DNA of 40,274 nucleotides from Achromobacter dolens (GTDB lineage: Bacteria; Pseudomonadota; Gammaproteobacteria; Burkholderiales; Burkholderiaceae_B), in NCBI RefSeq assembly GCF_902859745.1, contig NZ_CADIJW010000050.1, forward strand, positions 1 to 40,274, given 5' to 3'. Of the stretch, positions 7,114 to 26,574 are shown one piece after another. The position numbers and the translations under genes were made by a program. Numbering within the stretch: position 1 is the first letter of the stretch; each line of letters starts with the position of its first letter. The notes under the pieces are model-generated. The model was not told the origin of the DNA. It ran no database searches and saw nothing but the letters and a program-made list of their open reading frames with translations.

Positions 7114-7956
7114 TCACCACCAAGCGTGGAAGTGGTGCACCGGGCCATGGCCGGAGCCGACCGACAGGCGCTCGGCGTGGCGGATGGCTTCGGTCAGGTA
7201 GGCCTTGGCGCGGCGCGCCGCCTCGGGCACGTCCTCGACCTGGGGCAGCAGGGCGGCCAGGGCGGCCGACAGGGTGCAGCCGGTGCCGTGGGTGTTGGCG
7301 GTCTCGATGCGGTGACCCGGCAGCTCGATCATGCGGTCGCCGTCGTGCAGCAGGTCGATGGTGTCGTTGCCGGGCAGGTGGCCGCCCTTGACCATGACCC
7401 ATCGCTGGCCCGAATGCGCCAGCTTGTTGCGCAGGCGCTCGGCCACGCGCCGCATTTCCTTGACCGTCTCCACCGGGCGCTCTTCCAGCAGCACGCCGGC
7501 CTCGGGCAGGTTGGGGGTCAGCAGCGTGGCCTGCGGCAGCAGCGCTTCGCGCATGGCGCCGACGGCATCGCGTTCCAGCAGCAGGTCGCCGCTCTTGGCG
7601 ACCATGACCGGGTCCAGCACCACGTGCGCCGGGGTCCACTTGGCCAGCTTCTCGGCCACCACCTGGATCACTGGCTGCTGGCCCAGCATGCCGATCTTGA
7701 CCGCGTCGATGCGCACGTCGGCGAACAGGGTGTCGATCTGCTGGCCGACGAAGGCCGGCGGCACCGGCGAGATGCCGCTGACACCCTGGGTGTTCTGCGC
7801 GGTGAGCGCGGCGATGACGGCGCAGCCATAGGCGCCCAGGGCGCTCATGGCCTTGACGTCGGCCAGGATGCCGGCGCCGCCGGACGGGTCGACGCCGGCG
7901 ATGGTCAGCGCGTTGGGGATCGGGCGGCCAGTGGCGGCCGGCTGGCGGCTGCTCAT
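7114..7956 (-). CDS. thiD: Hydroxymethylpyrimidine/phosphomethylpyrimidine kinase ThiD
   Basis: This 280-residue ribokinase-fold enzyme phosphorylates HMP and then HMP-P to give HMP-PP, the pyrimidine half of thiamine. The substrate-site motif GVDPSGGAG is at residues 21-29. Also visible are [15 protein letters not shown], the central [11 protein letters not shown], and the C-terminal anion-hole motif [13 protein letters not shown] chose the ATG at 7956 ([10 protein letters not shown]). It overlaps the thiG stop as ATGA, a sign of translational coupling, and it fits the family length (about 270). The frame stays open upstream to 8352, but that part is out-of-frame thiG coding sequence and not ThiD. 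Confidence 0.95.
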
Positions 7957-8762
7957 TTGGCGGCGCCGGGGGCGGCGGTGATCAGGCCTTCGGTGGGCGA
8001 GCTGGGCGCGCCGCTGTAGAGCTTTTTCGGCATGCGGCCGGCCAGGAAGGCCTCGCGGCCGGACTCGACGCCCTTTTTCATGGCGCTGGCCATCAGCACC
8101 GGGTCGCGCGCGGCGGCGATGGCGGTGTTCATCAGCACGGCGTCGCAGCCCAGTTCCATGGCGATGGCGGCGTCCGAGGCGGTGCCCACGCCGGCGTCCA
8201 CCACCACCGGCACGCGCGCCTGGTCGATGATCAGGCGCAGGTTCCAGGGGTTCAGGATGCCCATGCCGGAGCCGATCAGCGAGGCCAGCGGCATCACCGC
8301 CACGGCGCCCATGTCTTCGAGCATGCGGCACTGGATGGGATCGTCGGTGCAATAGACCATGACCTGGAAGCCCTCATCCACCAGCGTTTTGGTGGCCTTG
8401 AGGGTTTCGGGCATGTTGGGGAACAGCGTGTGCGGATCGCCCAGCACTTCCAGCTTGACCAGGGCGTGGCCGTCCAGCAGCTCGCGCGCCAGGCGCAGCG
8501 TGCGCACGGCGTCGTCGGCCGAATAGCAGCCGGCGGTGTTGGGCAGCAGCGTGAACCTGGACATCGGCACGTAGTCGAGCAGGTTGGGCTCGCCCGGGTT
8601 CTGGCCGATGTTGGTGCGGCGGATGGCGACCGTGACGATCTCGGTGCCGCTGGCGTCCAGCGCCGCGCGGGTCTGTTCGAAATCCTTGTACTTGCCGGTG
8701 CCGACGAGCAGGCGCGACGAGTAGGCGCGGCCGGCGATGGTGAGAGTGTCTTGAGTGGTCAT
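7953..8762 (-). CDS. thiG: Thiazole synthase ThiG
   Basis: This 269-residue TIM-barrel enzyme forms the thiazole phosphate of thiamine from deoxyxylulose 5-phosphate, dehydroglycine and ThiS thiocarboxylate. Hallmarks are [11 protein letters not shown] near the start, [24 protein letters not shown], the Schiff-base lysine K103 in LVKLEVLGD, and the phosphate-binding [14 protein letters not shown]. The last four bases overlap thiD. No ThiS-like sulphur carrier (a short ORF ending in Gly-Gly) is found in the 205 bases upstream, so thiS must be elsewhere. The thiamine operon is therefore split. Confidence 0.96.
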
Positions 8763-8967
8763 GGCGATGCTTCAAAGGGCGGGCGCGCGCAGCGGGACCC
8801 GCGGGGGCTGGCTGATCATCGGGCGGATCAATGGGTTGATCCCGGTTAGGCGAATCATAAAGCACGGCGCGGCGCGCCCGCGCGAAAGGCCACGTTGGCG
8901 TGTTCCAGAAATCGCGCTTGCCGCGCAGGCGTGGCCGGCGCGAGGCGCCTCGGGATGCGGATACGCC

Positions 8968-9900
8968 CTACGGATGGCGCAATCGGTCCAGGTCCGCGCA
9001 CAACTGTTCGGCGGCATCGATCAGGCGCGGACCGGGGCGGTACAGCGCGTCGGCGTCGATGCCGTAGACGTGGCCCGCCAATGCCGCCGGCAGGCCCATG
9101 GCGCGCCAGGCGGCCAGGTTGCGGGCGGTGTCGGCGGGCGCGGAGACGCCGGCCAGCACCGCGTCGGGCCGCGCCGCCAGCACGCTTTCCAGGCCGACCT
9201 GCGGCGCCACCACGGGCGCCTGGGCGAAGACGTTGACGCCGCCGCACAGGCGCAGCGCGTCGCTGACGATGCTGGCGTGGTTCAGCGTGTAGATGGGGTC
9301 CAGGCCCGCCTGCACGAAGACCCGCACCGGCGCGCGGCCGGCGTAGCGCGCGGCCAGCGCGTCCAGGCGCGCGCGCAAGGCCTGGGCGGCGGGGCCGGCC
9401 TGCGCCTCGGTGCCGAACAGCACGCCCAGGCGTTCGACCGCGTCGGGAATGGCCGCGAGCGTCTGCGGGTCGCTGTAGTAGACCGCCACGCCGAGCTTGT
9501 CCATCACGCGCGCCAGCGGCGCGGCGGCGGAAGGCTGCCAGGCGATCACCAGGTCCGGACGGGTGGCGGCCACGCGCTCGGGATCGGGCTGGGTGCCGTC
9601 GCCGATGACCGGCAGGGCGCGGGCCGCGGGCGGATAGTCGCTGCCGCGGATCGTGGCGACCAGGTAGGCGCCGGCGCCGGCCGCGTAGACCAGCTCGGTG
9701 GCGTGCGGCGCCAGGGTCACCGCGCGCCGCGCCGGGACGGCCAGGGTGACGTCGCGGCCGCGGTCGTCGCGCGCATGGATCGCCGCCGGGGCTTCGGCCG
9801 AGGTCGCGGCTGCAGTCTTGGCCGAGGGGGCGGCCGCCGCCGGCCCCGGGGCGCACAGCAGCCCCAGGACGGCGAACGGAAGGGCGCGGACGAAGGTCAT
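8968..9900 (-). CDS. BtuF-like cobalamin/corrinoid ABC transporter substrate-binding protein
   Basis: This 310-residue periplasmic binding protein has a signal peptide (MTFVRALPFAVLGLLCAPGPAAAA) and the two-lobe PBP_like (PF01497-type) pattern of BtuF and siderophore binders: RAVTLAPHATELVYAAGAGAYLVA, then GDGTQPDPERVAATRPDLVIAW, and late HVYGIDADALYRPGPRLIDAAEQL. It lies downstream of a TonB-dependent receptor controlled by a cobalamin riboswitch, so corrinoid is the likely ligand. No btuC or btuD follows: the next gene on this strand is thiG, 205 bases on. The inner-membrane permease/ATPase must be elsewhere. The 54-base gap to the receptor gene contains a hairpin. Confidence 0.85.
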   Translation of the reverse strand: MTFVRALPFAVLGLLCAPGPAAAAPSAKTAAATSAEAPAAIHARDDRGRDVTLAVPARRAVTLAPHATELVYAAGAGAYLVATIRGSDYPPAARALPVIGDGTQPDPERVAATRPDLVIAWQPSAAAPLARVMDKLGVAVYYSDPQTLAAIPDAVERLGVLFGTEAQAGPAAQALRARLDALAARYAGRAPVRVFVQAGLDPIYTLNHASIVSDALRLCGGVNVFAQAPVVAPQVGLESVLAARPDAVLAGVSAPADTARNLAAWRAMGLPAALAGHVYGIDADALYRPGPRLIDAAEQLCADLDRLRHP

Positions 9901-9916
9901 GCGAGGGATCGATACG

Positions 9917-9938
9917 GTCGGCGTGGAGGAACGCCGAC
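9917..9938 (-). other. Hairpin between the TonB receptor and the btuF-like gene
   Basis: GTCGGCGT and ACGCCGAC form a perfect 8-bp stem with a 6-base loop, extended by weaker flanking pairs. It lies 16 bases before the btuF-like start codon on the minus strand. It could lower expression of the downstream gene relative to the receptor, or protect the receptor mRNA. Confidence 0.45.
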
Positions 9939-9954
9939 TATATCGGATCGCCGC

Positions 9955-11994
9955 TTAGTAGCGCACCGTGAGGGAGGCGTAGAAGTTGCGGCCGGGCGCG
10001 GGGTACAGGTTGTAGTTGGCAACCGGTCCCAGCATCTGGAACGAGGCGTCGCCGCCGCGGATGCCGTAGGTGGCGTACTTGCGGTCCAGCAGGTTGTTGA
10101 TGCCGAACGCGCCTTCGATGTTGCGGGTGAACTTGTAGGCCACCTTGGTATTGAAGAGCACGTAGGCATCCAGTTGCGTGTCGAACTGGTTGGCCTGGTC
10201 GTTGTCCATGCGCGACTTGCCGACGTACTGCGCCGTCACGTTCCACAGGAACGCATCGGTGGGGCGCCAGGTCACGCCGGCGTTGGCCAGCCACTTGGGC
10301 GCCAGCGGCACGGTCTTGCCCGCCAGGTCGACGCCGCCGTAGGTGCCCGAGCGGAATTGCGCTTCCATCCAGGTCAGGTTGGCGTCCAGCGTCATGCTGC
10401 TGGTCAGCTTGTGGTGGCCTTCCAGTTCGATGCCCTGGCGACGGGTCGGATCCAGGTTGGTGTTGGCGCCGGTGCCCGGGCCCCACATGCCGTCGGCCAG
10501 CGGGTTGTACTGGATCTCGTTGGTCAGGTCATAGCGGAACCACGACAGGCGCGCGCTGGTGCTGTCCGAGGCCCAGGTCACGCCCAGTTCCTTGTCGGTG
10601 GACGTCTGCGGCGCCAGCGGCGATTGCACCGACAGGGCTTCGTCGGCATTGGGCAGGCGGAAGCTGCGGCCGACCTTGCCGTACAGGCCGAAGCCGGCGG
10701 GCAGCTCCTGGCGCACGCCGAGCTGCCAGGCGGTCAGGTGGTGGCCCTTGTCGGATTCCTCGCCCGAGCCGGAAATCACTTCCAGCTTGTCGGAGGCGTA
10801 CTGGCGGCGCGCGCCCAGGGTGACGTAGGTGCTGTCGGTGGCGCGGATCTGGCCTTCGGCGAACAGGCCGTACTGGTGCTGGCGCGACTGCCACTTGGAG
10901 GGGGCGAAGTCGTAGTAGGCGTTCTGGTCGGCGGAGGTCTTGGCTTCCTGCGCGTCGGCGCCGAACACCACGCTGTGGCCGCCGTTGATCGGCAGGCGGT
11001 AGCGCAGGCTGGCCAGGTTCTCTTCCAGCTTCTGCTGGCGCAGCGTGTCGCCGAAACCGTCGTACGACAGGCCGTTGAGCTTCTTCTCGCGGGTCGAGGC
11101 GTCGGCGTACAGCGTGCCCACGCCGAGCTGCTGCTCGACCTGCAGGCCGAAGGTTGTGGTGGTGGTCTTGACGAAGTCGACCTTGTTCTTGGCGCCGCGG
11201 GGGTCGCTTTCGAACTGGTTCTCGCCCGTGGTCGGGTTGATCAGGCGCGGGCCCGGCAGGTCCAGCTTTTGGGTGGTGGTGTTGCCATACAGGCGGATCG
11301 AGCCGTTGTCGTGGCGGAAAGTGATGCCGCCGCCGCCGCCCTCGCGGCGCTCGCCGCTGTGATCGCGGTAGCCGTCGCTGTGCAGCGACTGCATGTAGGC
11401 GTCCACGCCCACCTTCTGGTTGTTCAGCGCCACGGCGGCGTCGTACTGGCGCAGGCCGTAGCTGCCGAAGGTGGCGGTGGCGCGGGCCGCGACCGGCTCC
11501 TTGGCGAAGTCCTTGCGGGTGATGATGTTGATGACGCCGCCGGTGGTGCCGCCGCCGTACTGAACCGAACCGCTGCCGCGCACGATTTCGACGCGTTCGA
11601 CCTGGTCCAGCGGCACCACGCCCAGGCTGGGGGCGGACAGATCGTTGGTGTTCTGCTTGACGCCGTCGATCATGATCAGCGTGTTGCTGGCGCCGGTGAT
11701 GCCGAAGCCGCGCAGGTCGACGATGGCGTTGTCGCTGGCGCTGGTGGTGTTGACCAGGTGGATGCCGGCCTGCGTCGACAGCAGGTCCTGCATGGTGCGG
11801 GCGCTGCTGGCGGCGATGTCTTCGGCGGTGATGACGGAGATCGACACCGGCAGGGTGCGGCCATCGCTGGGCACGCGCTGGGCGGTGACGGTGACGGTGT
11901 CGAGTTCGGGGGTGGCGGCTTGCTGGGCGGCGGAGAGGGCCGGGGCGGAACAGAGCAGGGCGCCAGCGTAGCGCCGGATGGAGCGGGATTTCAT
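9955..11994 (-). CDS. btuB: TonB-dependent receptor, BtuB-like (cobalamin uptake)
   Basis: This 679-residue outer-membrane receptor has a signal peptide (MKSRSIRRYAGALLCSAPALSAA), a TonB-box-like segment (LDTVTVTAQR) and a plug domain (about residues 45-155, with VDLRGFGITGASNTLIMIDG and VERVEIVRGSGSVQYGGGTTGGVINI). A 22-strand-type beta barrel ends in the outer-membrane signature FYASLTVRY. Such receptors import scarce ligands using TonB-ExbBD energy. The ligand is inferred from the cobalamin riboswitch in its leader and the BtuF-like gene downstream. On protein sequence alone it could also be a siderophore receptor, so the symbol depends on context. Confidence 0.88.
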   Translation of the reverse strand: MKSRSIRRYAGALLCSAPALSAAQQAATPELDTVTVTAQRVPSDGRTLPVSISVITAEDIAASSARTMQDLLSTQAGIHLVNTTSASDNAIVDLRGFGITGASNTLIMIDGVKQNTNDLSAPSLGVVPLDQVERVEIVRGSGSVQYGGGTTGGVINIITRKDFAKEPVAARATATFGSYGLRQYDAAVALNNQKVGVDAYMQSLHSDGYRDHSGERREGGGGGITFRHDNGSIRLYGNTTTQKLDLPGPRLINPTTGENQFESDPRGAKNKVDFVKTTTTTFGLQVEQQLGVGTLYADASTREKKLNGLSYDGFGDTLRQQKLEENLASLRYRLPINGGHSVVFGADAQEAKTSADQNAYYDFAPSKWQSRQHQYGLFAEGQIRATDSTYVTLGARRQYASDKLEVISGSGEESDKGHHLTAWQLGVRQELPAGFGLYGKVGRSFRLPNADEALSVQSPLAPQTSTDKELGVTWASDSTSARLSWFRYDLTNEIQYNPLADGMWGPGTGANTNLDPTRRQGIELEGHHKLTSSMTLDANLTWMEAQFRSGTYGGVDLAGKTVPLAPKWLANAGVTWRPTDAFLWNVTAQYVGKSRMDNDQANQFDTQLDAYVLFNTKVAYKFTRNIEGAFGINNLLDRKYATYGIRGGDASFQMLGPVANYNLYPAPGRNFYASLTVRY

Positions 11995-12079
11995 CTACAA
12001 GACCTCGATGCGACCCGCGACCCCGCAGGTCAATCACGATGGGGAGGAAACCCGGGCCACGCCGCGATCCCTGGGGAGC

Positions 12080-12300
12080 GGGCGCCGGACGGGCGTCCTG
12101 GCGATCGAACAGGCCGGTATCGGGCTGCCATGGGCGCATCGCGCGCATGGGGACCGTTGCGGGGGCAGCACAGGCTGGATGTCCGGGCCGGCCGGCCTTG
12201 TGGGCGGCGGGGCGGATGTCTTCCTGTTTCCCGTTTACCTTTCGCGCGCGGACCGGCAAGTGTTGCGTTCTTGCCTGTCCCTGTGCGCCGAAAGCACCGG
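12080..12300 (-). promoter_or_regulatory. Cobalamin (AdoCbl-type) riboswitch
   Basis: Read on the minus strand, the btuB leader contains the conserved core blocks in the right order: GGTAAACGGGAA (ending near 12228), then the hallmark CTGTGCTGCCCCCGCAACGG (near 12174-12155), and at about 12103-12090 a B12-box-like CGCCAGGACGCCCG, close to the consensus GCCAGGAGACC. The receptor ATG is about 85 bases further on. When bound to cobalamin this class usually represses translation or transcription of B12 uptake genes. The 5' boundary (GGTGCTTTCGGCGC, near 12298) is approximate. Confidence 0.9.
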
Positions 12301-12441
12301 TTCGGGGCCGAAACTGTATCACCGGAGGGCGAAACAGGGCCTGTTTTGTTACGATCAGGGGTTGATTTTTCGGCCTTTATCGTTTTTTAGCGACATTTGC
12401 GCGGCCGCTTTCGTTGCCCAACCCTCCTTTCGGACCTGAAC

Positions 12442-16215
<3,774 letters not shown>

Positions 16216-16265
16216 GGCCGGTTTCGCCGCCGCGCCGGGCCCGCCCGGTATCTCAGTGCCACCCC

Positions 16266-16305
16266 AGCGCCGCCCCGGCTCGTCCGGCGCGGCGCTTTGT
16301 TTTAT
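16266..16305 (+). terminator. Rho-independent terminator after metH
   Basis: A long GC stem (AGCGCCGC pairing with GCGGCGCT, with an inner CCGG pair and a CTCGT-like loop) is followed by TTTGTTTTATT. It lies 50 bases past the metH stop and just before the operator cluster of the next operon. Confidence 0.88.
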
Positions 16306-16310
16306 TCGGA

Positions 16311-16382
16311 CGGTTTACCAAATGGATAGTGGTAAACCATGATGTGCCAAATTGGTAAACCACATAATATTTGGTCCAACCA
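16311..16382 (+). promoter_or_regulatory. Four-site operator cluster for the FCD regulator
   Basis: TGGTAAACCA occurs exactly at 16330-16339 and 16353-16362. A one-mismatch inverted copy (CGGTTTACCA) is at 16311-16320, and TGGTCCAACCA is at 16372-16382. Site starts are 19, 23 and 19 bases apart. Each is a TGGT...ACCA palindrome of the kind bound by FadR/FCD-subfamily GntR regulators, and the regulator gene starts 12 bases after the last one. A possible -10 (CATAAT, 16363-16368) lies between sites three and four. Autorepression and control of the downstream operon are inferred. Confidence 0.75.
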
Positions 16383-16393
16383 CTTTCAACGCC

Positions 16394-17122
16394 ATGACAC
16401 TACAACTGATCCCCAAGCCCGAGGAACCCGCCAGCAAGCCGGTGGCCGACCGCGCCTACCTGCGGCTGGCCGCGCAGATCCAGGCGCTGGTCGCGCAGGG
16501 CGAGTTCGCGGTGGGCAAGCGCCTGCCGGCCGAGCGCGCGCTGGCCGAGCGCTTCGACGTCAGCCGCACCTCGCTGCGCGAGGCCATCATCGCGCTGGAA
16601 CTGCAGGGCGTGGTGGAAGTGCGCGGCGGTTCGGGCATCTACGTCTGTGAACCCAAGCCGGGCGTGGCGCGGCTGCCGGCCGCGCAGGAGCCGGGCGCCG
16701 GTCCGTTCGAACTGCTGCGCGCGCGCTGCCTGGTGGAATCCGAGATCGCCGCGCTGGCGGCCACGACGCGCAACGACGCCGACCTGGACCGCATCTTCGA
16801 GGCGCTGACCACCATGCGCGAACAGATGATGCACAAGGAAGAGAACCAGGAGGCCGACCGCCGTTTCCACCTGTACATCGCGCAGTCCACCGGCAACAGC
16901 GTGCTGCTGGGCACGGTGACGGCGATGTGGGACCAGGCGCAAGGCCCTATCTGGGAAAAGATCGAACAGCATTTCCATACGCAGGAATTGCGCCAGGCCT
17001 CGCAGGAAGACCATCAGCGCATCTTCAGCGCGCTGGTGGCGCGCGATGCGGATGGCGCGCGGCAGGCAATGCGCAATCACCTCGAACGCGTGATCGGCGA
17101 GTTCGCGCAGGGGTGGCGTTGA
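16394..17122 (+). CDS. FCD-domain GntR-family transcriptional regulator
   Basis: This 242-residue protein has an N-terminal winged helix-turn-helix (KRLPAERALAERFDVSRTSLREAIIALELQGVVEVRGGSGIYV) and a C-terminal all-helical FCD ligand domain. The usual metal-site residues are visible (D and H in EADRRFHLYIAQSTGN, H in DHQRIFSAL, H in MRNHLERV). This FadR/UxuR/ExuR-like subfamily commonly senses sugar acids or other organic acids. I chose the ATG at 16394. A TTG at 16352 in the same frame would put translation through the operator repeats. It is the first gene of the sugar-acid operon, with the next gene 83 bases downstream. Confidence 0.92.
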   Translation: MTLQLIPKPEEPASKPVADRAYLRLAAQIQALVAQGEFAVGKRLPAERALAERFDVSRTSLREAIIALELQGVVEVRGGSGIYVCEPKPGVARLPAAQEPGAGPFELLRARCLVESEIAALAATTRNDADLDRIFEALTTMREQMMHKEENQEADRRFHLYIAQSTGNSVLLGTVTAMWDQAQGPIWEKIEQHFHTQELRQASQEDHQRIFSALVARDADGARQAMRNHLERVIGEFAQGWR

Positions 17123-17205
17123 CGTAATACCGGCAGGCGGCCCCCGGCTGAGCGCGGAAGATACCGCGCCCCGGAACCGGGCGACACACATCAGGAGACA
17201 ACAGG

Positions 17206-18072
17206 ATGCAGCAAAGGAACAAGGGGAGCCGCGCCTGGCACAGGGCGGCGGCGATGCTGTCGGCGTGCGCGCTGGCGGCCTATGCGCTGACCGCGCCGGC
17301 GATGGCGCAGGAAGCGCCCGCGGCGGGCCAGAGCGCGCGCATCGATGCGATCCGCAAGGCGGGCGAGCTGCGCGTCGGCGTGCTGCAGAATGCGCCCTGG
17401 CTGCTGCAGGACGTGTCCGGCAAGGGCGGCGAGGGCTGGAGCGGCCCGGCCTGGCTGCTGGCCAAGGAATACGCCCGCCTGTTGGGCGTGAAGCTGACGC
17501 CGGTGCAGGTCTCGCACGAGACCAAGGTGCCGGTGCTGGCGGCCAACCAGGTCGACATGACCATCAGCCCGCTGGCCGAAACGCCGGAACGCTTGAAGGT
17601 GGTGGACTTCGTGCTGTATTCCTCCACCAGCGTCTGCCTGTTCGGCCTGGCGTCCAATCCCAGGATGGCCGCGGCCAGGTCGGTCGATGACCTGAACCGG
17701 CCCGGCGTCACCATCGCATACTTCACCGGCGGCGCCGAGGAAGCCTGGGTCAAGCAGCGCTTTCCCAACGCCACGCTGCGCGCCGTGGCCAACTCGGGCG
17801 CCACCGCGCCGATCGAGGAAATCATGGCCAAGCGCGCCGACGCGGCGCCGATTAACCGCGTGCCCTGGGTCGGCCTGAGCCGCAAGGTGCGCGGCCTGAT
17901 CGCGCTGCCCGCCGAGGCCAACTGCCAGCAGAGCACCGAAAAGGCCTCGCCGGTGGGCCTGGCGATCGACAAGAACCAGCCCGAATACCTGGCCTGGCTG
18001 CGGCAGGTGGCCGCCGGCATGAAGACGCGCCTGGACGCCGACGAAATGCGCATCATCGAACAGACCCCGTAG
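17206..18072 (+). CDS. Family-3 periplasmic substrate-binding protein (ABC importer), copy 1
   Basis: This 288-residue protein has a signal peptide (MQQRNKGSRAWHRAAAMLSACALAAYALTAPAMAQ, with cleavage after AMA or AQ). A bacterial extracellular solute-binding protein family 3 domain follows (IRKAGELRVGVLQNAPW, HETKVPVLAANQVDMTISPLAETPERLKVVDF). This family usually binds polar amino acids. It shares long blocks with the next gene (RIDAIRKAG, PVQVSHETKVP, FGLASNP, NSG..APIEE), so the two are tandem paralogues. AGGAG is well placed before the ATG at 17206. Given the enzymes downstream, the ligand may be a sugar acid rather than an amino acid; this is inference. Confidence 0.88.
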   Translation: MQQRNKGSRAWHRAAAMLSACALAAYALTAPAMAQEAPAAGQSARIDAIRKAGELRVGVLQNAPWLLQDVSGKGGEGWSGPAWLLAKEYARLLGVKLTPVQVSHETKVPVLAANQVDMTISPLAETPERLKVVDFVLYSSTSVCLFGLASNPRMAAARSVDDLNRPGVTIAYFTGGAEEAWVKQRFPNATLRAVANSGATAPIEEIMAKRADAAPINRVPWVGLSRKVRGLIALPAEANCQQSTEKASPVGLAIDKNQPEYLAWLRQVAAGMKTRLDADEMRIIEQTP

Positions 18073-18203
18073 GCCGCTCCGGCCTTTCCCCACCCCACTG
18101 GATTCACCGACCCCGCGCAAGGCGCGCGGCCCGGGCGACTGCCCGCGGCCTCGCGCGCCCGCATCCGGCGTCCGCCGCCGGGCTTGCCTCCAAGGAGACC
18201 GCA

Positions 18204-19037
18204 ATGCAACCGTCCTTCCTCACCCGTTTCGCCGCCACCGCTCTGCTGCTGGCCGGCGCCGCCACCGCCCAGGCGCAGACGCCGCCCGCGCCCGGCGAGA
18301 GCCCGCGCATCGACGCCATTCGTAAGGCCGGCGTGCTGCGCGTGGGCGTGGTCAACAACCCGCCGTGGCTGGTGCAGAACACCACCGGCTCGGGCGAGCC
18401 CTGGATGGGCTCGTCGTGGCTGCTGGGCAAGGAATTCGCGCGCCTGCTGGACGTGAAGATCGTGCCGGTGCAGGTCAGCCACGAAACCAAGGTGCCGGCG
18501 CTGATCGCCAATCAGATGGACATCATGATCGGGCCGCTGAACCAGAACGCCGAGCGCGCCAAGATCATCGACTTCGTCACGTTCTCGAACACCAGCGTCT
18601 GCATGTTCGGCCTGGCGTCCAACCCCAAGTTCACCAGCGCCACCAAGGTCGAGGACTTCAACCAGCCCGGCATCACCATGGCGTACTTCTCGGGCGCGGG
18701 CGAAGAGCCGCTGGTGCTGGAGAACTTCCCCAAGGCCAAGCTGCGCGGCGTCACCAACTCGGGTTCGGTGGCGCCGATCGAGGAAGTGCTGGCGGGCCGC
18801 TCCGACGTGGCGCCGCTGAACCGCATGCTGTGGCCCAACATCAGCAGGAAGGTCAAGGGCCTGGCCGTGTTCCCCAAGGAAAACGATTGCCAGGACAGCA
18901 AGATCTTCGCGATCGACGCGGGCATGGGCGTGGCCAAGAACCAGCCGGTGTACCTGGAGTGGCTGCGCAAGGTGGAAGCGCGCATGCATCCCGAACTGGT
19001 GGCCGAAGAGCGCCGCATGACGCAGAACCTGAAGTAA
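18204..19037 (+). CDS. Family-3 periplasmic substrate-binding protein (ABC importer), copy 2
   Basis: This 277-residue paralogue of the preceding gene has a signal peptide (MQPSFLTRFAATALLLAGAATAQAQ). Its binding domain contains GVLRVGVVNNPPW, PVQVSHETKVPALIANQMDIMIGPL, NTSVCMFGLASNP and VTNSGSVAPIEEVLAG. A strong AAGGAG site precedes the ATG. The 131-base gap from copy 1 is GC-rich with short inverted repeats, and the dehydrogenase gene starts 12 bases after the stop. Two different binding proteins feeding one permease pair would broaden ligand range or affinity, though one may have diverged to a sensor role. The amino acid differences cluster in the C-terminal third. Confidence 0.88.
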   Translation: MQPSFLTRFAATALLLAGAATAQAQTPPAPGESPRIDAIRKAGVLRVGVVNNPPWLVQNTTGSGEPWMGSSWLLGKEFARLLDVKIVPVQVSHETKVPALIANQMDIMIGPLNQNAERAKIIDFVTFSNTSVCMFGLASNPKFTSATKVEDFNQPGITMAYFSGAGEEPLVLENFPKAKLRGVTNSGSVAPIEEVLAGRSDVAPLNRMLWPNISRKVKGLAVFPKENDCQDSKIFAIDAGMGVAKNQPVYLEWLRKVEARMHPELVAEERRMTQNLK

Positions 19038-19049
19038 GGCGGACACACC

Positions 19050-20087
19050 ATGCTCAATTGCGCGATTCATGGGGCCGAGGACTTGCGGCTGGTGGAACAG
19101 GCGCCCGAGCCGCTGGGCCCGACGCAGGTGCGCGTCGGCGTCAAGGCGGTCGGCATCTGCGGTTCGGACCTGCATTACTACCGTCACGGCCGGGTCGGCG
19201 ACTTCGTCATCCGCGAACCGCTGACGCCGGGCCACGAGGCCTCGGGCCAGGTGCTGGAGGTCGGCTCGGCGGTCACCGCCGTCAAGCCCGGCGACCGCGT
19301 GGCGCTGGATCCGGCGCGCACCTGCGGCGTGTGCCGCTACTGCCGCCAGGGCGATTCCAACCACTGCGAGGCGGTGTTCTTCTTCGGCAGCGCCAGCCGC
19401 TATCCGCACATGCAGGGCGCGATGCGCGAGCAGGTGGTGGTGCAGGAAAAGCAGTGCGTGCCGGTGCCGGACAGCCTGTCGTTCGAGCTGGCCGCCTTCG
19501 GCGAGCCGCTGGCGGTGGCGCTGCACGCGGTGCGCAGCGCCGGCACGCTGCTGGGCAAGACGGTGATGGTGGTGGGCGCCGGGCCGATCGGCGCGCTGGT
19601 GCTGATGGCGGCGCGCCTGGCCGGCGCCAGCCAGGTCATCGTGGTCGACATCGTCGACCAGACCCTGGCAACCTGCGCCAAGGTCGGCGCCACGCGCACC
19701 ATCAACGCCGCCGCCGAGCCGGGCGCGCTGGACGAACTGGCGGCGGGCAAGGGCACGGTCGATGTGTGCTTCGAGGCCTCCGGCAACTACGCCGGGCTGG
19801 CGAACTGCATCCGCGCCACGCGGCCGCGCGGCACCATCGTCACGGTGGGCACGCTGGGCGGCAGCAGCGAGCAGTGCCCGTTCAACCAGATCATGGTCAA
19901 GAGCCTGAACGTCATCGGCAGCTTCCGCTTCGTCGATGAATACGCCTGGGCGGTCGACTACCTGGGCCGCGGCCTGGTGGACGTGGCGCCGCTGCTGACG
20001 GCGGCGGTGCCGGCGCGCCAGGCGCACGAGGCCTTCGCGCTGGCGGCCGACCGGCGCCAGGCCATGAAAGTGATGGTGACGTTCTGA
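19050..20087 (+). CDS. Zinc-dependent L-idonate/L-gulonate 5-dehydrogenase-like enzyme
   Basis: This 345-residue medium-chain zinc alcohol dehydrogenase has catalytic-zinc ligands C37 (GICGSDLHYY) and H62-E63 (PGHEASG). The structural-zinc quartet is C92, C95, C98 and C106, and the Rossmann motif is VVGAGPIGALVLMAARLAG. It is most like L-idonate 5-dehydrogenase (IdnD) and RspB-type enzymes, which oxidise C5 of a hexonate. L-idonate would give 5-ketogluconate and L-gulonate would give D-fructuronate. Because a fructuronate-reductase-like gene and a mannonate dehydratase follow in the same operon, L-gulonate 5-dehydrogenase is the better contextual guess. Substrate is not decidable from sequence alone. 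Confidence 0.85.
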   Translation: MLNCAIHGAEDLRLVEQAPEPLGPTQVRVGVKAVGICGSDLHYYRHGRVGDFVIREPLTPGHEASGQVLEVGSAVTAVKPGDRVALDPARTCGVCRYCRQGDSNHCEAVFFFGSASRYPHMQGAMREQVVVQEKQCVPVPDSLSFELAAFGEPLAVALHAVRSAGTLLGKTVMVVGAGPIGALVLMAARLAGASQVIVVDIVDQTLATCAKVGATRTINAAAEPGALDELAAGKGTVDVCFEASGNYAGLANCIRATRPRGTIVTVGTLGGSSEQCPFNQIMVKSLNVIGSFRFVDEYAWAVDYLGRGLVDVAPLLTAAVPARQAHEAFALAADRRQAMKVMVTF

Positions 20088-20120
20088 GCCCGGCCGCGCT
20101 CGCGACCGCACGGAGATTCC

Positions 20121-20786
20121 ATGGACTTCGATTTTTCCCCCATCGTCGATAACTGGCGCTTCTTCGCCAGTGGCCTGGGCATCACGGTGGCGCTGAGCGC
20201 CGTCACGGCGGTGTCCAGCATCCTGCTGGGCCTGGTGATCGCGCTGCTGCGCCTGTACGGGCCGCGCTGGCTGCGGGTGCTGCTGGTGTTCTACATCGAC
20301 AGCATGCGCGCCATCCCGGTGCTGGTGGTGCTGGTGTGGATCTACTTCGCCTTCCCGCTGCTGGCCGGGGTGACCTTCGCGCCGTTCTGGGCGGCGCTGG
20401 TGGCGTTGACGCTGCACATCGCGGCCTACTCGGCCGAGGTGATCCGCGCCGGCATCGAGTCGGTGCGCCCGGGGCAGATGCGCGCCGGCCTGGCGCTCGG
20501 CATGTCGCGGGCCCAGGCGCTGCGCAAGATCATCCTGCCGCAGGCCACCATCCGCATGCTGCCGGCCTTCGGCTCGGTGCTGACGGTGGCGATCAAGGAC
20601 ACCGCCATCGCCACGGTGATCGCGGTGCCCGAACTGATGCACAAGGCCGAGACCATCGCCGGGCAGAGCTACCGGCCGATCGAGGTGTTCACCGCGGTGA
20701 TCGTGGCGTACTTCGTGATCCTGTTCCCGGTGACGCGCGGCGTGGACCGGCTGTACCAACGTTACGCACACCTGGGGCGCTCATGA
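20121..20786 (+). CDS. Polar-amino-acid-type ABC transporter permease (HisM/GlnP family), first
   Basis: This 221-residue inner-membrane permease begins MDFDFSPIVDNWRFFASGLGITVALS. It has several hydrophobic helices and the cytoplasmic EAA loop (AAYSAEVIRAGIESVRPGQMRAGLALGMSRAQALRKIILPQA) that contacts the ATPase. It belongs to the His/Glu/Gln/Arg/opine permease family. Its stop overlaps the start of the second permease as ATGA, so the two are translationally coupled and probably form a heterodimeric channel. It lies 33 bases after the dehydrogenase gene. Confidence 0.92.
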   Translation: MDFDFSPIVDNWRFFASGLGITVALSAVTAVSSILLGLVIALLRLYGPRWLRVLLVFYIDSMRAIPVLVVLVWIYFAFPLLAGVTFAPFWAALVALTLHIAAYSAEVIRAGIESVRPGQMRAGLALGMSRAQALRKIILPQATIRMLPAFGSVLTVAIKDTAIATVIAVPELMHKAETIAGQSYRPIEVFTAVIVAYFVILFPVTRGVDRLYQRYAHLGRS

Positions 20787-21442
20787 ATCTGGACTGGGGA
20801 ATTATCTGGGACTCGCGCCAGGTGCTGCTGCAGGGCGCGGCCATGACCGTGATGCTGACGGTGGTGACGATGGCGCTGGCGGTGCCCGGCGGCATGGTGC
20901 TGGCGCTGATGCGGCTGTCGTCGAACCGCGTGGCCAATGGCATCGCGGTGGCGATCGTCGAGTTCTTCCGCAACCTGCCGCTGATCCTGGTGATCTATTG
21001 GGCGTTCTACGTGATGCCGATGGCGCTGGACGTGCAGTTCTCGGCGGTGACCACGGCGCTGGTGGCGCTGGTGCTGAACGTGTCGGCCTACAACTCCGAG
21101 ACCTTCCGCGCCGGCATCAATTCGATCCGCAAGGGCCAGATGGAGGCGGCGCTGGCGATGGGCATGTCGCGCCGCCAGGCCATGTTCAAGGTGCTGGTGC
21201 CGCAGGCAGCGCGGCGGATCCTGCCGGTGCTGGCCAGCACCTGGATCTCGCTGTTCAAGGACACCTCGCTGGTGTCGGTGATCGCCGTCAGCGAGCTGGC
21301 CTATGCCTCGATGCAGGTGCGCGCGCAGAGCTTCCGCGTGCTGGAAATGCTGACCGCGATGGCGGTGATCTATTGGCTGATGGGCTATCCGCAGGCCAAG
21401 CTGGTCGACTGGATCCACCGCAAATACGGAGTCAAGGAGTGA
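20783..21442 (+). CDS. Polar-amino-acid-type ABC transporter permease (HisQ/GlnP family), second
   Basis: This 219-residue permease starts MNLDWGIIWDSRQVLLQGAAMTVMLT at the ATG overlapping the previous stop. It has the same family architecture, with the EAA loop in SAYNSETFRAGINSIRKGQMEAALAMGMSRRQAMFKVLVPQAARR. It is a diverged sister of the first permease. The frame stays open upstream, but that is out-of-frame sequence of the first permease gene. The ATPase gene follows 5 bases after the stop. Confidence 0.92.
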   Translation: MNLDWGIIWDSRQVLLQGAAMTVMLTVVTMALAVPGGMVLALMRLSSNRVANGIAVAIVEFFRNLPLILVIYWAFYVMPMALDVQFSAVTTALVALVLNVSAYNSETFRAGINSIRKGQMEAALAMGMSRRQAMFKVLVPQAARRILPVLASTWISLFKDTSLVSVIAVSELAYASMQVRAQSFRVLEMLTAMAVIYWLMGYPQAKLVDWIHRKYGVKE

Positions 21443-21447
21443 ACGAG

Positions 21448-22326
21448 ATGATCCTGGAACAAGTGGCCGGCACGGCCGGCGCGGCGGCGGCCGCAGCAAC
21501 GACCCGCGCGGCAACGGCCGCCGCAGCGCCGGCTGCCGCAGCGACGGCTGCCGCGGCAACGGCCGCCGCACGCAAGGGCGCCGATCAGCCGCCGGTGCTG
21601 GTGTACGAGCACGTGCGCAAGGTCTTTGGCGACTTCGTGGCGTTGAACGACGTTTCGCTGCAGGTCAACAAGGGCGAGGTGATGTGCCTGATCGGCCCGT
21701 CCGGTTCGGGCAAGTCTACGCTCCTGCGCTGCACCAACGCATTGGAGAAGATCGACGGCGGCCGCGTGCTGCTGGACGGCGTGGCGGTGCCGGAGGCCGA
21801 ATCGGAAGTGCGCAAGGTGCGCCAGCGCATGGGCATGGTGTTCCAGAGCTTCGAGCTGTTCCCGCACAAGTCGGCGCTGGACAACGTCGCCATGGGGCCC
21901 ATCACCGTGCTCGGCATGGCGCCGGAGCTGGCGCGGGCCCGCGCCATGGCGCTGCTGGAGAAGGTCGGCCTGGCCGCCAAGGCCGGCAACTTTCCCGCCA
22001 ACCTGTCCGGCGGCCAGCAGCAGCGCGTGGCGATCGCCCGCGCGCTGGCGATGGAGCCGGAAGTGATGCTGTTCGACGAGCCGACCTCGGCGCTCGACCC
22101 CGAGACCGTGGGCGAGGTGCTGAACGTCATGAAGAAGCTGGCGCAGGAAGGCATGACCATGATCGTGGTCACGCATGAAATGAGTTTCGCGCGGCGCGTG
22201 GCCAACTGGGTGGTGGTGTTCGAGAACGGCGCCATCCTGGAACAGGGCCCGCCCGCGCAGATTTTCGACAACCCGCAGGTCGCCCGTACCCGCGACTTCC
22301 TCAGCCACCTGGGCTGGGAAGGCTGA
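21448..22326 (+). CDS. Amino-acid-type ABC transporter ATPase with Ala/Thr repeat extension
   Basis: This 292-residue ATPase of the GlnQ/HisP family has Walker A GPSGSGKS (residues 83-90), Q-loop MVFQSFELFPH, signature LSGGQQQR, Walker B VMLFDEP and the switch histidine in VVTHEMSF. It powers the permease pair just upstream. The family is normally about 240-260 residues. The extra length is an N-terminal low-complexity arm (about residues 7-42), nearly all Ala and Thr. The ATG at 21448 has AGGAG eight bases upstream, which supports translation of the arm. A later start at a GTG near 21598 is possible but has a poor ribosome site. Confidence 0.93.
   Translation: MILEQVAGTAGAAAAAATTRAATAAAAPAAAATAAAATAAARKGADQPPVLVYEHVRKVFGDFVALNDVSLQVNKGEVMCLIGPSGSGKSTLLRCTNALEKIDGGRVLLDGVAVPEAESEVRKVRQRMGMVFQSFELFPHKSALDNVAMGPITVLGMAPELARARAMALLEKVGLAAKAGNFPANLSGGQQQRVAIARALAMEPEVMLFDEPTSALDPETVGEVLNVMKKLAQEGMTMIVVTHEMSFARRVANWVVVFENGAILEQGPPAQIFDNPQVARTRDFLSHLGWEG
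21511..21570 (+). repeat. 15-bp tandem repeat, four units, inside the ATPase gene
   Basis: Four consecutive in-frame 15-bp units (GCAACGGCCGCCGCA and near-copies at 21511, 21526, 21541 and 21556) encode ATAAA, APAAA, ATAAA and ATAAA, residues 22-41. Units one and four are identical. Gain or loss of a unit would keep the frame, so length could vary between strains. Confidence 0.85.
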
Positions 22327-22350
22327 ACACCCTCCCGTTTCACGGAATCC

Positions 22351-23565
22351 ATGATGAAAATTACGAACGCACGCGTCATTGTTTGTTCGCCGGGCCGCAA
22401 TTTCGTGACCCTGAAGATCGAGACCGACCAGGGCCTGACCGGCATCGGCGACGCCACCCTGAACGGGCGCGAGCTGGCCGTGGCGGCCTACCTGACCGAA
22501 CACGTGGTGCCTTGCCTGATCGGCCGCGACGCGCACCAGATCGAGGACATCTGGCAATACCTGTACAAGGGCGCCTACTGGCGCCGGGGCCCGGTCACCA
22601 TGACCGCCATCGCCGCGGTCGACACCGCGCTCTGGGACCTGAAGGCCAAGGCCGCCGGCCTGCCGCTGTACCAACTGCTGGGCGGCAAGAGCCGCACCGG
22701 CGTCATGGTCTACGGCCACGCCAATGGCAGCGACATCGAGCACACCGTCGACGAGGTGCTGCGCTATGCCGACATGGGCTACCGCGCGATCCGCGCGCAG
22801 AGCGGCGTGCCGGGGCTGGACAAGGTCTACGGCGTCGGCCGCGGCAACCTGTTCTACGAACCCGCCGACGCCGACCTGCCCAGCGAGCACGACTGGTCCA
22901 CGGAGAAGTACCTGCGGCACACGCCCAAGCTGTTCGATCGCATCCGCGAAAAGCTCGGCTTCGAGCACCACCTGCTGCACGACGTGCACCACCGCCTGAT
23001 GCCGATCGAGGCTGGCCGCCTGGGCAAGTCGCTGGAACCGTACAACCTGTTCTGGATGGAAGACGCCACGCCGGCCGAGAACCAGGAGGCCTTCCGCCTG
23101 ATCCGCCAGCACACCACCACGCCGCTGGCGGTGGGCGAGATCTTCAATTCGATCTGGGACTGCAAGGACCTGGTGCAGAACCAGTTGATCGACTACATCC
23201 GGACCACCGTGGTGCACGCCGGCGGCATCACGCACCTGCGCCGCATCGCCGACCTGGCCTCGCTGTACCAGGTGCGCACCGGCTGCCATGGCGCCACCGA
23301 CCTGTCGCCGGTGTGCATGGGCGCGGCGCTGCACTTCGACCTGTGGGTGCCGAACTTCGGCATCCAGGAATACATGCGCCACACCGAGGAGACGGACGCG
23401 GTGTTCCCCCACGCCTACACCTTCTCGCAGGGCATGCTGTATCCGGGCGATGTGCCGGGTCACGGCGTGGACATCGACGAGAAGCTGGCCGCCAAGTATC
23501 CGTACAAGCGCGCCTACCTGCCGGTGAACCGCTTGCAGCAGGACGGCACGCTATGGAATTGGTAG
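22351..23565 (+). CDS. manD: D-mannonate dehydratase, enolase-superfamily ManD type
   Basis: This 404-residue enolase-superfamily enzyme dehydrates D-mannonate to 2-keto-3-deoxygluconate. The ManD pattern is complete: R148 (RAIRAQ) and Y160 (KVYGVGRG) as acid/base candidates, D211 and H213 in HDVHHR, E237 in [10 protein letters not shown]263 in VGEIFN, H313 in [10 protein letters not shown], and a conserved C-terminus ending in GTLWNW. Some subgroup members are slow or use D-gluconate, and E. coli RspA belongs here. It starts 24 bases after the ATPase gene and overlaps the next gene by 13 bases, so it is firmly within the operon. Confidence 0.93.
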
Positions 23566-25115
23566 CCCCCGCGGCCGTCCGGCTGCATCCGGCGCGCCTG
23601 CAGGCGCTGGCGCCCGGCCTGGCGCGACCGGCCTACGATAGGGGCGCGTTGCGCGCCGGCATCGTGCATCTGGGACTGGGCGCGTTCGCGCGCGGCCATC
23701 TGGCGGCGGTGAATGAGGCGGCCATCCACGCCAGCGGCGACCCGCGCTGGGGCATCTGCGGCGTGTCGCTGCGCCAGGCCGACACCCGCGATGCGCTGGC
23801 GCCGCAGGACGGGCTGTACACGCTGGCGCTGCGCAGCGCCGACGCCGAGGGCCGGCCGCGACAGCAACTGGCCGTGATCGGCTGCCTGCTGGAAACGCTG
23901 GTGGCGCCGGAGGATCCGCAGGCGGTGCTGGCGCGCATCGCCAGTCCGTACACGCGCATCGTGAGCCTGACCGTGACCGAGAAGGGCTATTGCCACGATC
24001 CGGCCAGCGGGGCGTTGAACCTGGCGCATCCCGACATCGTGCACGACCTGGGCCAGCCGCTGGCGCCGCGCAGCACCATCGGCTTCCTGGTGTGGGGGCT
24101 GCAACGGCGCCGCGCCTCGGGCCTGGGCCCGGTGACGCTGCTGTCGCTGGACAACCTGCCCGGCAACGGCCATCTGCTGCGCGGCCTGGTGCTGGCGTTC
24201 GCCGCGCAGGTCGACGCCCGCCTGGCCGAATGGATCGGCCAGGCCTGCACGTTTCCGTGCTCCATGGTGGACCGCATCGTGCCGCGCACCACCGATGAGG
24301 ATCGCGCGGCCGTGGCGCAGGCGCTGGGCATGACGGACGCCTGGCCGGTGCAGGCCGAGCCGTTCCTGGAATGGGTGGTGGAAGATCGCTTTGCCGCCGG
24401 TCGGCCGGACTGGGCCGTGGGCGGCGCGCGCTTTGTCGACGAGGCGGCGCCGTTCGAGACCCTCAAGCTGCGCATGGTGAACGGCGCGCATTCGGCGCTG
24501 GCCTACCTGTCGGTGATGGCGGGGTGGGGCACGGTGGACCAGGCCGTGGCGCAGCCGGCGCTGCGGCGCTATCTGGCCGACCTGATGCGCATGGAAATCG
24601 CGCCGACCCTGCCGGTGCTGCCAGGCCTGGACCTGGCGGCTTACCAGGAGCGGCTGTTGCAACGCTACGCCAATCCGGCGCTGCGGCACCAGACGCGGCA
24701 GATCGCCATGGACGGGTCGCAGAAGATGCCGCAGCGCCTGCTGGGCACGGTGCGGGCGCGGCTGGCGGCGGACCGGCCGATCACGGGGCTGGCGCTGGCG
24801 CTGGCCGGCTGGCTGCATTTCCTGCGCGGTGTGGATCAGGCAGGACGGCGTTATCCCATCGACGATCCGCTGGCCGAGCCGCTGGCGCAGCGACTGGCGC
24901 AGGCCGAGCATGCGGCGCGCGATGCTTCGCCGGGACCGGCCGCCGCGCTGGCCTGGGCGCGCGAGATGACGGCCCTGGCCGCCGTGTTCGGCGACCTGGG
25001 CCGCGACGAGCGTTTCGTGCGCGAGGTGGCGCAGGCGGCGCAGTCGTTGCGCACGCTGGGCGTGGCGGGCGCGCTGGAGGCGACCCTGGCCGCGATGCGC
25101 GCGGACGCTGGCTAG
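23553..25115 (+). CDS. Mannitol dehydrogenase family oxidoreductase, probable fructuronate reductase
   Basis: This 520-residue polyol-specific long-chain dehydrogenase has the nucleotide-binding segment [17 protein letters not shown], the middle [16 protein letters not shown], and the catalytic K-x4-N-x2-H motif at K305, N310 and H313 ([10 protein letters not shown]). The family includes mannitol 2-dehydrogenase, UxuB (D-fructuronate/D-mannonate) and UxaB. Next to a mannonate dehydratase, UxuB-type activity is the natural reading. The ATG at 23553 lies inside the end of manD (13-base overlap). The gene ends 13 bases from the convergent amidase gene and is the last gene of the operon. Confidence 0.9.
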
Positions 25116-25128
25116 GGCGGCGTCCGCG

Positions 25129-26574
25129 TCAGGCAGCCGGCGGCGCCAGCCGGCCCAGCAATGGTTCGATTGCCATGCCAATGGCGAGGATCTGGCGGTC
25201 CTCGCCCGGCAGGCCATCCACCTCCAGTCCGATCGGCAGGCCGCCGTCCGACAGGCCGGCGGGCAGGCTCAGGCCGGGCAGGCCCGCGTTGCTGCCGGGG
25301 TCGACGTTGCGCGCCAGCCGCAGGAACGACTCCAGGCTGCTGGCCTCGGACGCGGCGAGCGGCGCCAGCACCGGCACCGTGGGGAACAGCAGCCCGTGCA
25401 GCCCGTGCCGCGCGAACGCACGGCGGTAGACGTCGACGAGCGCGTTGCGATGTTCCGCGATGGCGCTGTCGTAAAGCGGTTGCAGCGGCAGCAGTTCGCC
25501 CGATGGCGTGGGCAGCACGCCCGGCACGACCAGGTCATCGAAGATGGCTTTCACGTCAGGGCTGGAAATCCGAGCCACCAGTTCCTCGAATGACACGCCC
25601 GCGTCGTGGCGTTGCAGATAGGCGATCAGATCGTGCTTCTGCTCGTACAGGCACAGTGGCATGCCGGTCGCGGCGTTGCTGGCTTCCAGGCCGGGCAGGT
25701 CCAGCGGGACCAGGGTCACGCCGGCCGCGCGCAGACGCTCCAGGGCGGCCTGCGCCGTGGCCTCTACCCGCGGGTCCAGGTCCTGCCAGAAATAGCCGGG
25801 CAGGCCCAGGCGCAGGTCGGCGGCGCGCAGCGCCGGCAGTGGCGTGTCATCGCCGGCCAGGACGGCATCCAGCAGCGCGATGTCGGCCATGCCGTTGGCG
25901 ATGGGTCCGGGCGTATCGCGGGTATGCGAAATCGGCGTAATGCCCGAACCGTCATAGCGACCCACGGAAGGCCGGAAGCCGACGGCGCCATTGAGGGCGG
26001 CGGGCAGGCGCACGGAAGCGCCAGTGTCGGTGCCTAGCGCGGCCGGCACCAGGCGCGCGCCCACCGCCGCGCCGCTGCCCGAGGACGAACCGCCGGCGAT
26101 GCGTTCGGCGTCATAAGCGTTGCGCGTGCCCGCGCCGCGCGGGCCGGGGTAGGCGGTGTTGTAGCCGGACACGCCGAAGGCCAGTTCATGCATGTGGGTC
26201 TTGCCGACGATGATGGCGCCCGCCTCGCGCAACCGGCGCACCACCGGCGCGTCTTCCTTGGGGATGAAGCCATGCAGGGCCGGGGTGCCGGCGGTGTTGG
26301 GCAGCCCCGCCACATGGATGTTGTCCTTGATCGCCAAGGGCACGCCCTGCAGCGGCCGGGGCGCGCGGCCGGCGGCGCGCCCGGCGTCGGCGGCCCTTGC
26401 CTGGGCCAGCGCGCCCTCGGCGTCGACGGTGATGAAGGCATTGAGGTCCTGGCGGGACGCGATGCGGTCCAGACAGGCCCGGGTGAGGGCCTCGCTGGTG
26501 ATCTGGCCGTCGCGGAACAGCGCCGCGGCCTCGGTCACGGTGGGGCAGCTCGAGGACGTCTGGTGGGCGGTCAT
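25129..26574 (-). CDS. Amidase-signature family hydrolase (indoleacetamide hydrolase-like)
   Basis: This 481-residue amidase-signature enzyme has the complete Ser-cisSer-Lys triad: K83 ([12 protein letters not shown]), S164 in the [13 protein letters not shown] glycine/serine loop, and nucleophile S187 in [13 protein letters not shown]. Overall it resembles bacterial indoleacetamide hydrolases and other broad amidases ([43 protein letters not shown]). GatA is unlikely because no gatB/gatC is nearby. No signal peptide is seen, so it is cytoplasmic. It is divergent from the MmyB-like regulator gene, which may control it. Substrate is not determinable here. Confidence 0.88.

Follow-up and report, generated by a model that had tools for sequence, protein, structure and literature searches.

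Candidate sugar-acid operon of Achromobacter dolens with an ABC importer of the polar-amino-acid class

Operons in which the mannonate dehydratase ManD stands with dehydrogenases in a hexonate route serve the catabolism of L-gulonate and L-idonate in Chromohalobacter and in uropathogenic Escherichia coli, and the importers of those operons belong to a class other than the one described here. We analyzed a 40,274-nucleotide stretch of Achromobacter dolens (the window; NZ_CADIJW010000050.1, contig 50 of a 6.29-Mb genome labeled G000), in which a run of nine genes on one strand (16394-25115) encodes ManD together with an ATP-binding cassette (ABC) importer of the polar-amino-acid (PAAT) class. 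From its gene content and its relatives in other genomes, we consider it probable that the importer moves six-carbon (C6) sugar acids and that the run is an inducible catabolic operon to which this importer is dedicated. An L-gulonate pathway has been shown experimentally in Haemophilus influenzae (GulPQM, GulD, UxuB, UxuA, KdgK, and KdgA), its enzymes having been picked from the genome neighborhood of the importer, as described in PMC5788505. The route itself is already known; the new element is the PAAT-class importer dedicated to it.

Gene content of the operon and the route it would encode

The nine genes are tightly packed and all their frames are open, with no internal stops; the intergenic gaps along the run are, in order, 83, 131, 12, 33, -4, 5, 24, and -13 bases, and a convergent amidase gene starts 13 bases past its end. 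The original prediction, made from the letters of the window, of eight co-directional structural genes behind an FCD regulator was borne out gene by gene in coordinates, gaps, and family assignments. The run opens with a GntR/FCD transcriptional regulator (16394..17122, + strand, as are all the following), which is succeeded by two substrate-binding proteins (SBPs) of the SBP_bac_3 family, SBP1 (17206..18072), of a widespread type, and SBP2 (18204..19037), a duplicate seen in betaproteobacterial loci. Next come a zinc-type medium-chain dehydrogenase similar to L-idonate/L-gulonate 5-dehydrogenases (19050..20087; ADH_N/ADH_zinc_N, four-Cys zinc motif), two ABC permeases of the polar-amino-acid class (20121..20786 and 20783..21442; both BPD_transp_1, with HEQRo_perm_3TM over the cut-off), and a GlnQ/EhuA-like ABC ATPase (21448..22326; ABC_tran). 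The run is closed by the D-mannonate dehydratase ManD of the enolase superfamily (22351..23565; MR_MLE) and a fructuronate-reductase-like (UxuB-like) reductase of the mannitol dehydrogenase family (23553..25115; Mannitol_dh). The regulator, the binding proteins, the dehydrogenase, ManD, and the reductase show 95-100% identity to those of Achromobacter ruhlandii LMG 1866 and A. insuavis LMG 26845. Terminator-like sites between positions 16200 and 25300 were rarer than in shuffled sequence (1 versus a mean of 4.3).

The enzyme content proposed originally, namely, a 5-dehydrogenase-like protein, a full ManD, and a KxxxxNxxH reductase, agreed with the family and model matches. ManD scored 759 bits against the NCBIfam equivalog NF043051 (cut-off, 550), and its best solved relative was 2qjj, with which it shares an Ala at a position where 4k1w, in sequence otherwise almost identical to 2qjj, has Pro. 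Ala at this position marks a high-efficiency group. The best NCBIfam model for the dehydrogenase was L-idonate 5-dehydrogenase (329 bits; cut-off, 469), the function also of its best solved relative, 6dkh, and that for the reductase was fructuronate reductase (404 bits; cut-off, 603), the reductase having a single KxxxxNxxH match (KLRMVNGAH, residue 305). As both enzymes score under the curated cut-offs, which counts against the proposed route, their substrates are predictions.

The absence of the uronate isomerase UxaC from the window turned out to extend to the whole genome: a PF02614 search gave 0 matches, while 7 of 14 control genomes were positive, and entry of glucuronate through a UxaC encoded elsewhere in the genome was therefore rejected. 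A second mannonate dehydratase was rejected likewise, since a search of the genome for UxuA found none. The genome holds one ManD and, at E<=1e-50, one copy of the operon dehydrogenase. On contig 1 (approximately 203,964-205,401) it carries a 2-keto-3-deoxy-6-phosphogluconate (KDPG) aldolase gene, over the TIGR01182 cut-off, and, overlapping its end, a gene for a protein resembling 2-keto-3-deoxygluconate (KDG) kinases; the latter scored 210 bits against an NCBIfam cut-off of 400, a further point against the route. KDG is probably handled by this kinase-like protein and the aldolase. With the enzymes of the operon and the kinase-like/aldolase pair, a route can therefore be drawn from L-gulonate to central metabolism, the usual entry of glucuronate being missing. 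L-Gulonate would be oxidized at C5 to D-fructuronate, which the UxuB-like enzyme would reduce to D-mannonate; the dehydrogenase and the reductase would thereby epimerize L-gulonate at C5. ManD would dehydrate D-mannonate to KDG, and this would yield pyruvate and glyceraldehyde 3-phosphate via the KDG kinase and KDPG aldolase encoded elsewhere. We infer every one of these substrates, and the direction of regulation discussed below, from homology and gene context.

Linkage of the importer and the enzymes in other genomes

A profile scan of genome contigs with the SBP alignment and two peptide patterns gave 78 loci, the best of 129 confirmed stretches, of which no more than 80 were taken; one of the patterns lies inside the SHETK stretch, so that conservation there partly reflects how the loci were picked. 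A gene was counted as present when one aligned tblastn piece covered at least 40% of the query, and a locus as well-flanked when its binding-protein genes had at least 4.5 kb of sequence on each flank (n = 61). The loci belong mostly to alpha- and betaproteobacteria, plus one Rokubacteria bin. A mannonate dehydratase was found in 61 of the 78, as ManD in 44 and as UxuA, a protein of an unrelated family, in 17, with no locus having both. A reductase homologue was present in 60 loci, a dehydratase together with a reductase in 55, and neither in 12; among the well-flanked loci, 57 had a dehydratase and 51 a reductase. The original proposal that an importer of this class is paired with this pathway, an arrangement predicted to be unusual, is thus supported, but the arrangement is not a one-off, as it recurs across many bacteria. 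A similar arrangement stands on a plasmid of Roseateles sp. XES5 (L125, 6899-13292), which carries the importer, a GntR regulator, a mannitol-dehydrogenase-family protein, and uxuA, the importer being annotated as "amino acid ABC transporter."

The label of the dehydratase, ManD or UxuA, changes at least 3 times on the best permease tree, and the well-supported branches of that tree alone force two changes for the UxuA set (these tests used hand-marked short loci, among which L070, L058, and L079 are misplaced with respect to the 4.5-kb rule). Retention of the importer while the dehydratase is swapped for an unrelated one argues more strongly for a shared function than gene order alone would.

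We then surveyed 300 genomes of the order to which the window belongs and found ManD in 7 genomes, at 8 loci. TRAP (tripartite ATP-independent periplasmic) components occurred in three of the eight (L109, L110, and L112) and a major facilitator superfamily (MFS) protein in one (L111); two gave no clear assignment (L113 and L114), one had no transporter in the operon (L108), and the eighth was the window. This small sample fits the earlier statement that sugar acids usually enter by systems other than a PAAT-class importer. The binding-protein family was found at E<=1e-60 in only the window's genome among the 300, and of 151 genomes of the same bacterial family, 7 encode the binding protein at E<=1e-20. 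The locus without a transporter belongs to a genome of the same genus (G003); at 7531-12161 it holds the regulator, the dehydrogenase, ManD, and the reductase beside a metH-sized gene, and it retains the operator sites described below, while all five importer genes are missing from both places that they hold in the window. It is a natural test of other ways to obtain the compound.

The lack of an importer at that locus weighs against a dedicated function, as do several further observations. A simple consensus scan of positions 16200-25300 gave no sigma-70-like promoter. Seventeen of the 78 loci had no mannonate dehydratase; in 13 of them one flank or both were short or truncated, and four with more than 9 kb on both sides (L074, L089, L090, and L093) had neither dehydratase nor reductase. 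No reductase was found in 10 of the 61 well-flanked loci. Six of these (L068, L069, L070, L076, L080, and L097) had the dehydratase only, in the form of ManD in L070 and of UxuA in the other five. UxaC was present in the genomes of the five of these six loci that were searched, all but L070. The importer of these loci may serve D-mannonate or a hexuronate, with the other enzymes encoded elsewhere.

Binding proteins and the question of cargo

The 78 loci encode 121 binding proteins, 77 of the SBP1 type and 44 of the SBP2 type; both types occur in 43 loci, SBP1 alone in 34, and SBP2 alone in one (L054). A homologue of the zinc 5-dehydrogenase was found in 34 loci, 33 of which have SBP2. Nine Polaromonas/Rhodoferax loci lack the zinc dehydrogenase and have a short-chain dehydrogenase/reductase (SDR), which in 8 of them adjoins the reductase on the opposite strand. 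When either kind of dehydrogenase was counted, 42 loci had both it and SBP2, 33 had neither, 2 had SBP2 only, and 1 had the dehydrogenase only. The exceptions, which speak against the association, are L037 (cut by a contig end) and L050, with SBP2 and no dehydrogenase, and L071, with the dehydrogenase and no SBP2. A further point against it is that the presence of SBP2 changes once on the tree, as a single gain; the link between SBP2 and the dehydrogenase is therefore one historical event and not repeated evidence, and a counted test of their co-change, with one independent pair, had no power. Proteins of the altronate/galactarate-dehydratase and Ldh_2 families were seen near some of the Polaromonas/Rhodoferax loci.

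In the mechanism that we propose, one permease pair and one ATPase would serve both binding proteins; SBP2, which travels with the 5-dehydrogenase, would most likely bind L-gulonate, and SBP1 would most likely bind D-fructuronate or D-mannonate. Whether L-gulonate is the main cargo in the window's genome we judge to be about even. Three genomes, those of L086, L091, and the metagenome bin L079, carry the importer with ManD and the reductase, and a search of them found neither UxaC nor, at E<=1e-50, a homologue of the 5-dehydrogenase, so that the importer family cannot be assumed to be specific for L-gulonate. For these three, D-fructuronate or D-mannonate would be the simplest cargo, unless an unrelated enzyme performs the oxidation. 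The prediction of a hexonate cargo accordingly stands in part: the absence of UxaC on which it drew is confirmed, and L-gulonate as the cargo is not established, given these three genomes and a UxaC gene inside another importer locus (L084).

The same genomes lend substance to the alternative that the cargo of the window's importer is D-fructuronate, D-mannonate, or another hexonate, such as L-idonate or D-altronate, and that the 5-dehydrogenase acts on a side substrate or in reverse. D-Fructuronate would need exactly the reductase and the dehydratase, the two enzymes that accompany the SBP1-type importers there, and for D-mannonate the dehydratase would be sufficient, as in the six well-flanked loci without a reductase. 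On the other hand, in the clade of the window a dehydrogenase accompanies SBP2 in 42 of 44 loci, which suggests that the oxidation step is used. We regard this alternative as a serious possibility, albeit one falling clearly short of even.

Import of D-glucuronate, with entry by an isomerase other than UxaC or by intracellular reduction to L-gulonate, appears unlikely for the window. UxaC was not found in 30 of the 37 importer genomes searched, that of the window among them, and the operon encodes no isomerase or aldehyde reductase. The seven positive genomes (those of L068, L069, L076, L080, L084, L096, and L097) indicate that some relatives may serve hexuronates. In one of them, of Rhizobiaceae (L084, 10001-18919), UxaC lies within the locus itself, which comprises the importer, UxuA, UxaC, and the reductase, with a member of the altronate dehydratase family on the other strand of the cluster, and is likely a hexuronate version of the importer locus. 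Also in favor of the glucuronate reading, a xylose-isomerase-like TIM barrel protein adjoins the enzymes in L085.

Given the class of the importer, its cargo could also be an amino acid proper, or one joined to a sugar in a conjugate of the opine or Amadori type, the sugar part of which would feed the enzymes. The PAAT class does include binding proteins that take mannityl opines. The make-up of the window's importer is that of the PAAT class, PF00497 and TIGR01726 being over their cut-offs for the binding proteins and permeases; the best model for the ATPase was GlnQ (322 bits, under the cut-off of 379), and the permeases and the ATPase had their highest scores with systems for glutamine, cystine, and ectoine. 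The ATPase starts with a low-complexity Ala-rich extension of approximately 40 residues (window 21448-21580), the length of which varies among the Achromobacter loci compared and is far shorter in L054.

The binding proteins themselves suit such a cargo less well. SBP1 and SBP2 share 57% identity across 249 aligned positions. In an alignment of 56 rows (19 of the 44 SBP2 and 35 of the 77 SBP1 proteins of the loci, together with the pair from the window), Arg118, Asn206, and Arg207 were invariant. In amino-acid-binding proteins, the Arg holds the carboxylate and an Asp holds the ammonium group. Set beside relatives of solved structure, among them the reconstructed AncCDT-1, these proteins retain the Arg of the xER motif, and an Asn-Arg pair replaces the Asp and another residue, so that the Arg-plus-Asp site for alpha-amino acids is absent, with Asn206 in the Asp column of all 56 rows. 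The retention of the Arg with replacement of the Asp by Asn would suit a carboxylate ligand without an alpha-amino group. Among the 23 other SBP_bac_3 proteins of the genome, 22 have the Arg, 14 have Asp in the Asp column, and none has Asn there; since Asp is missing from that column in 9 of the 23, its loss is not diagnostic, which weakens our reading, and the change is not proof of a sugar-acid ligand. Besides the altered site, the operon contains no amine-releasing enzyme, and the adjacent amidase gene is convergent and occurs in 11 of the 78 loci, all of them of Achromobacter. An amino acid or conjugate as cargo therefore seems rather improbable to us.

That the importer is a chance neighbor with an unrelated cargo, the sugar acids entering by another system, is highly improbable, for although the enzymes and regulator of G003 persist without it and four well-flanked loci have it without dehydratase or reductase, the linkage survives the exchange of ManD and UxuA as well as rearrangements of gene order and strand, and it extends across alpha- and betaproteobacteria.

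The two binding proteins also differ from each other next to the predicted ligand-site residues. Position 113 is Asn in 20 of 20 SBP2 rows and Ala, Ser, or Gly in SBP1, and position 170 is Trp in 36 of 36 SBP1 rows and Leu or Met in SBP2. Returning to C6 sugar acids as the cargo, we tentatively suggest, at somewhat less than even confidence, that a branch of the PAAT family in alpha- and betaproteobacteria imports them, the older binding protein directly recognizing D-fructuronate or D-mannonate, and that in one lineage a duplication of the binding protein, together with the 5-dehydrogenase, added L-gulonate. On this reading the bacteria would grow on compounds that are otherwise mostly encountered as intermediates inside the cell.

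Regulator, flanking genes, and comparison with known systems

A homologue of the regulator (54-100% identity) was found in 48 of the 78 loci. The nearest NCBIfam models were ExuR (165 bits; cut-off, 396) and UxuR (152 bits; cut-off, 442), both cut-offs thus lying well above the scores of the window's protein. Upstream of its gene is an operator cluster (16311..16362, without strand), in which two exact TGGTAAACCA palindromes (16330-16339 and 16353-16362) lie 64 and 41 bases 5' of the ATG, preceded by a third, degenerate one, CGGTTTACCA at about 16311, with one mismatch to TGGTTTACCA. The pattern TGGTWNACCA had 4 strand matches in the window, at 2 palindromic places, versus 0.11 expected by shuffling. 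The spacing, with 2 bases between GT and AC, fits the operator of the UxuR group, given as a TKGT/ACMA palindrome in PMC4494728.

The operator is conserved with the regulator: of 51 upstream regions (those of 49 of the 78 loci, of L108, and of the window), 48 have TGGTNNACCA within -200..+20 of the regulator start, the density elsewhere in the same loci being 0.005 per kb. The three remaining regions are those of L032, which is cut by a contig end, L046, which has no site, and L049, which has two sites further upstream, its tblastn match having begun inside the gene. Twenty-nine loci lack this regulator, many of them having another GntR protein, and the TGGTNNACCA pattern was rare in the 29 (4 sites in total). 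The whole genome has three exact copies of TGGTAAACCA, two of them before the window's regulator; the third (C29:6705), considered as a regulon site, was taken as a chance occurrence, as it lies inside a 445-amino-acid frame matching BhcC-type aldolases. A wider regulon, sought with the exact pattern in 21 genomes, was dropped because many counts were near those of the reversed-pattern control. The position of the operator ahead of the regulator gene suggests that the entire run is autoregulated: an FCD repressor of the UxuR/ExuR kind would bind the pair of TGGTNNACCA sites in the promoter of its own gene and be released by a sugar-acid ligand. An Rfam scan of the window gave no riboswitch or other RNA match at the gathering score.

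The operon is adjoined by a gene for an indoleacetamide hydrolase (window 25129-26574, - strand; NF005688, over the cut-off), which lies on the opposite side of the operon in other Achromobacter loci, such as L024 and L030. On its other side (window 8968-16215) are a TonB-dependent receptor and a Peripla_BP_2 binding protein, divergent from a 1272-amino-acid frame, with no Rfam match. This frame resembles what we take to be metH, and the genes of that region are possibly a cobalamin set. A further SBP_bac_3 protein (window 37985-39001) retains the Asp at the site compared above.

A search confined to the open-access literature found no tie between a PAAT-class importer and mannonate or gulonate, which is a weak negative. 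If the proposed function is right, a group of importers now annotated as "amino acid ABC transporter" would bear a label wrong in kind, the PAAT fold would gain a new class of ligand, and the SBP1/SBP2 paralogues would offer a ready test of the shift from amino-acid to sugar-acid recognition. L-Gulonate, D-mannonate, or D-fructuronate would then be carbon sources that soil and opportunistic bacteria actually use.

Three known systems invite comparison. The H. influenzae pathway, as presented in PMC5788505, shares with the proposed route the oxidation at C5, the reduction of fructuronate, the dehydration of mannonate to KDG, the kinase, and the aldolase; it differs in having a TRAP importer and UxuA, whereas the window combines ManD with a PAAT-class ABC importer that has two binding proteins of family 3, the kinase-like protein and the aldolase being encoded at another place in the genome. 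The hexuronate isomerase pathway (UxaC-UxuB-UxuA with ExuT), in the account of PMC6353982, likewise has a UxuB-like reductase, a mannonate dehydratase, and an ExuR/UxuR-like regulator, but neither its UxaC nor its UxuA was found in the genome of the window, and an ABC importer takes the place of ExuT. The PAAT importers for glutamine (GlnHPQ), cystine, and ectoine have the same SBP_bac_3 binding proteins, HEQRo-type permeases, and GlnQ-like ATPase; the importer of the window is set apart from them by its two binding proteins, by the Asn-Arg pair in place of the Asp at the compared site, and by the sugar-acid enzymes encoded with it.

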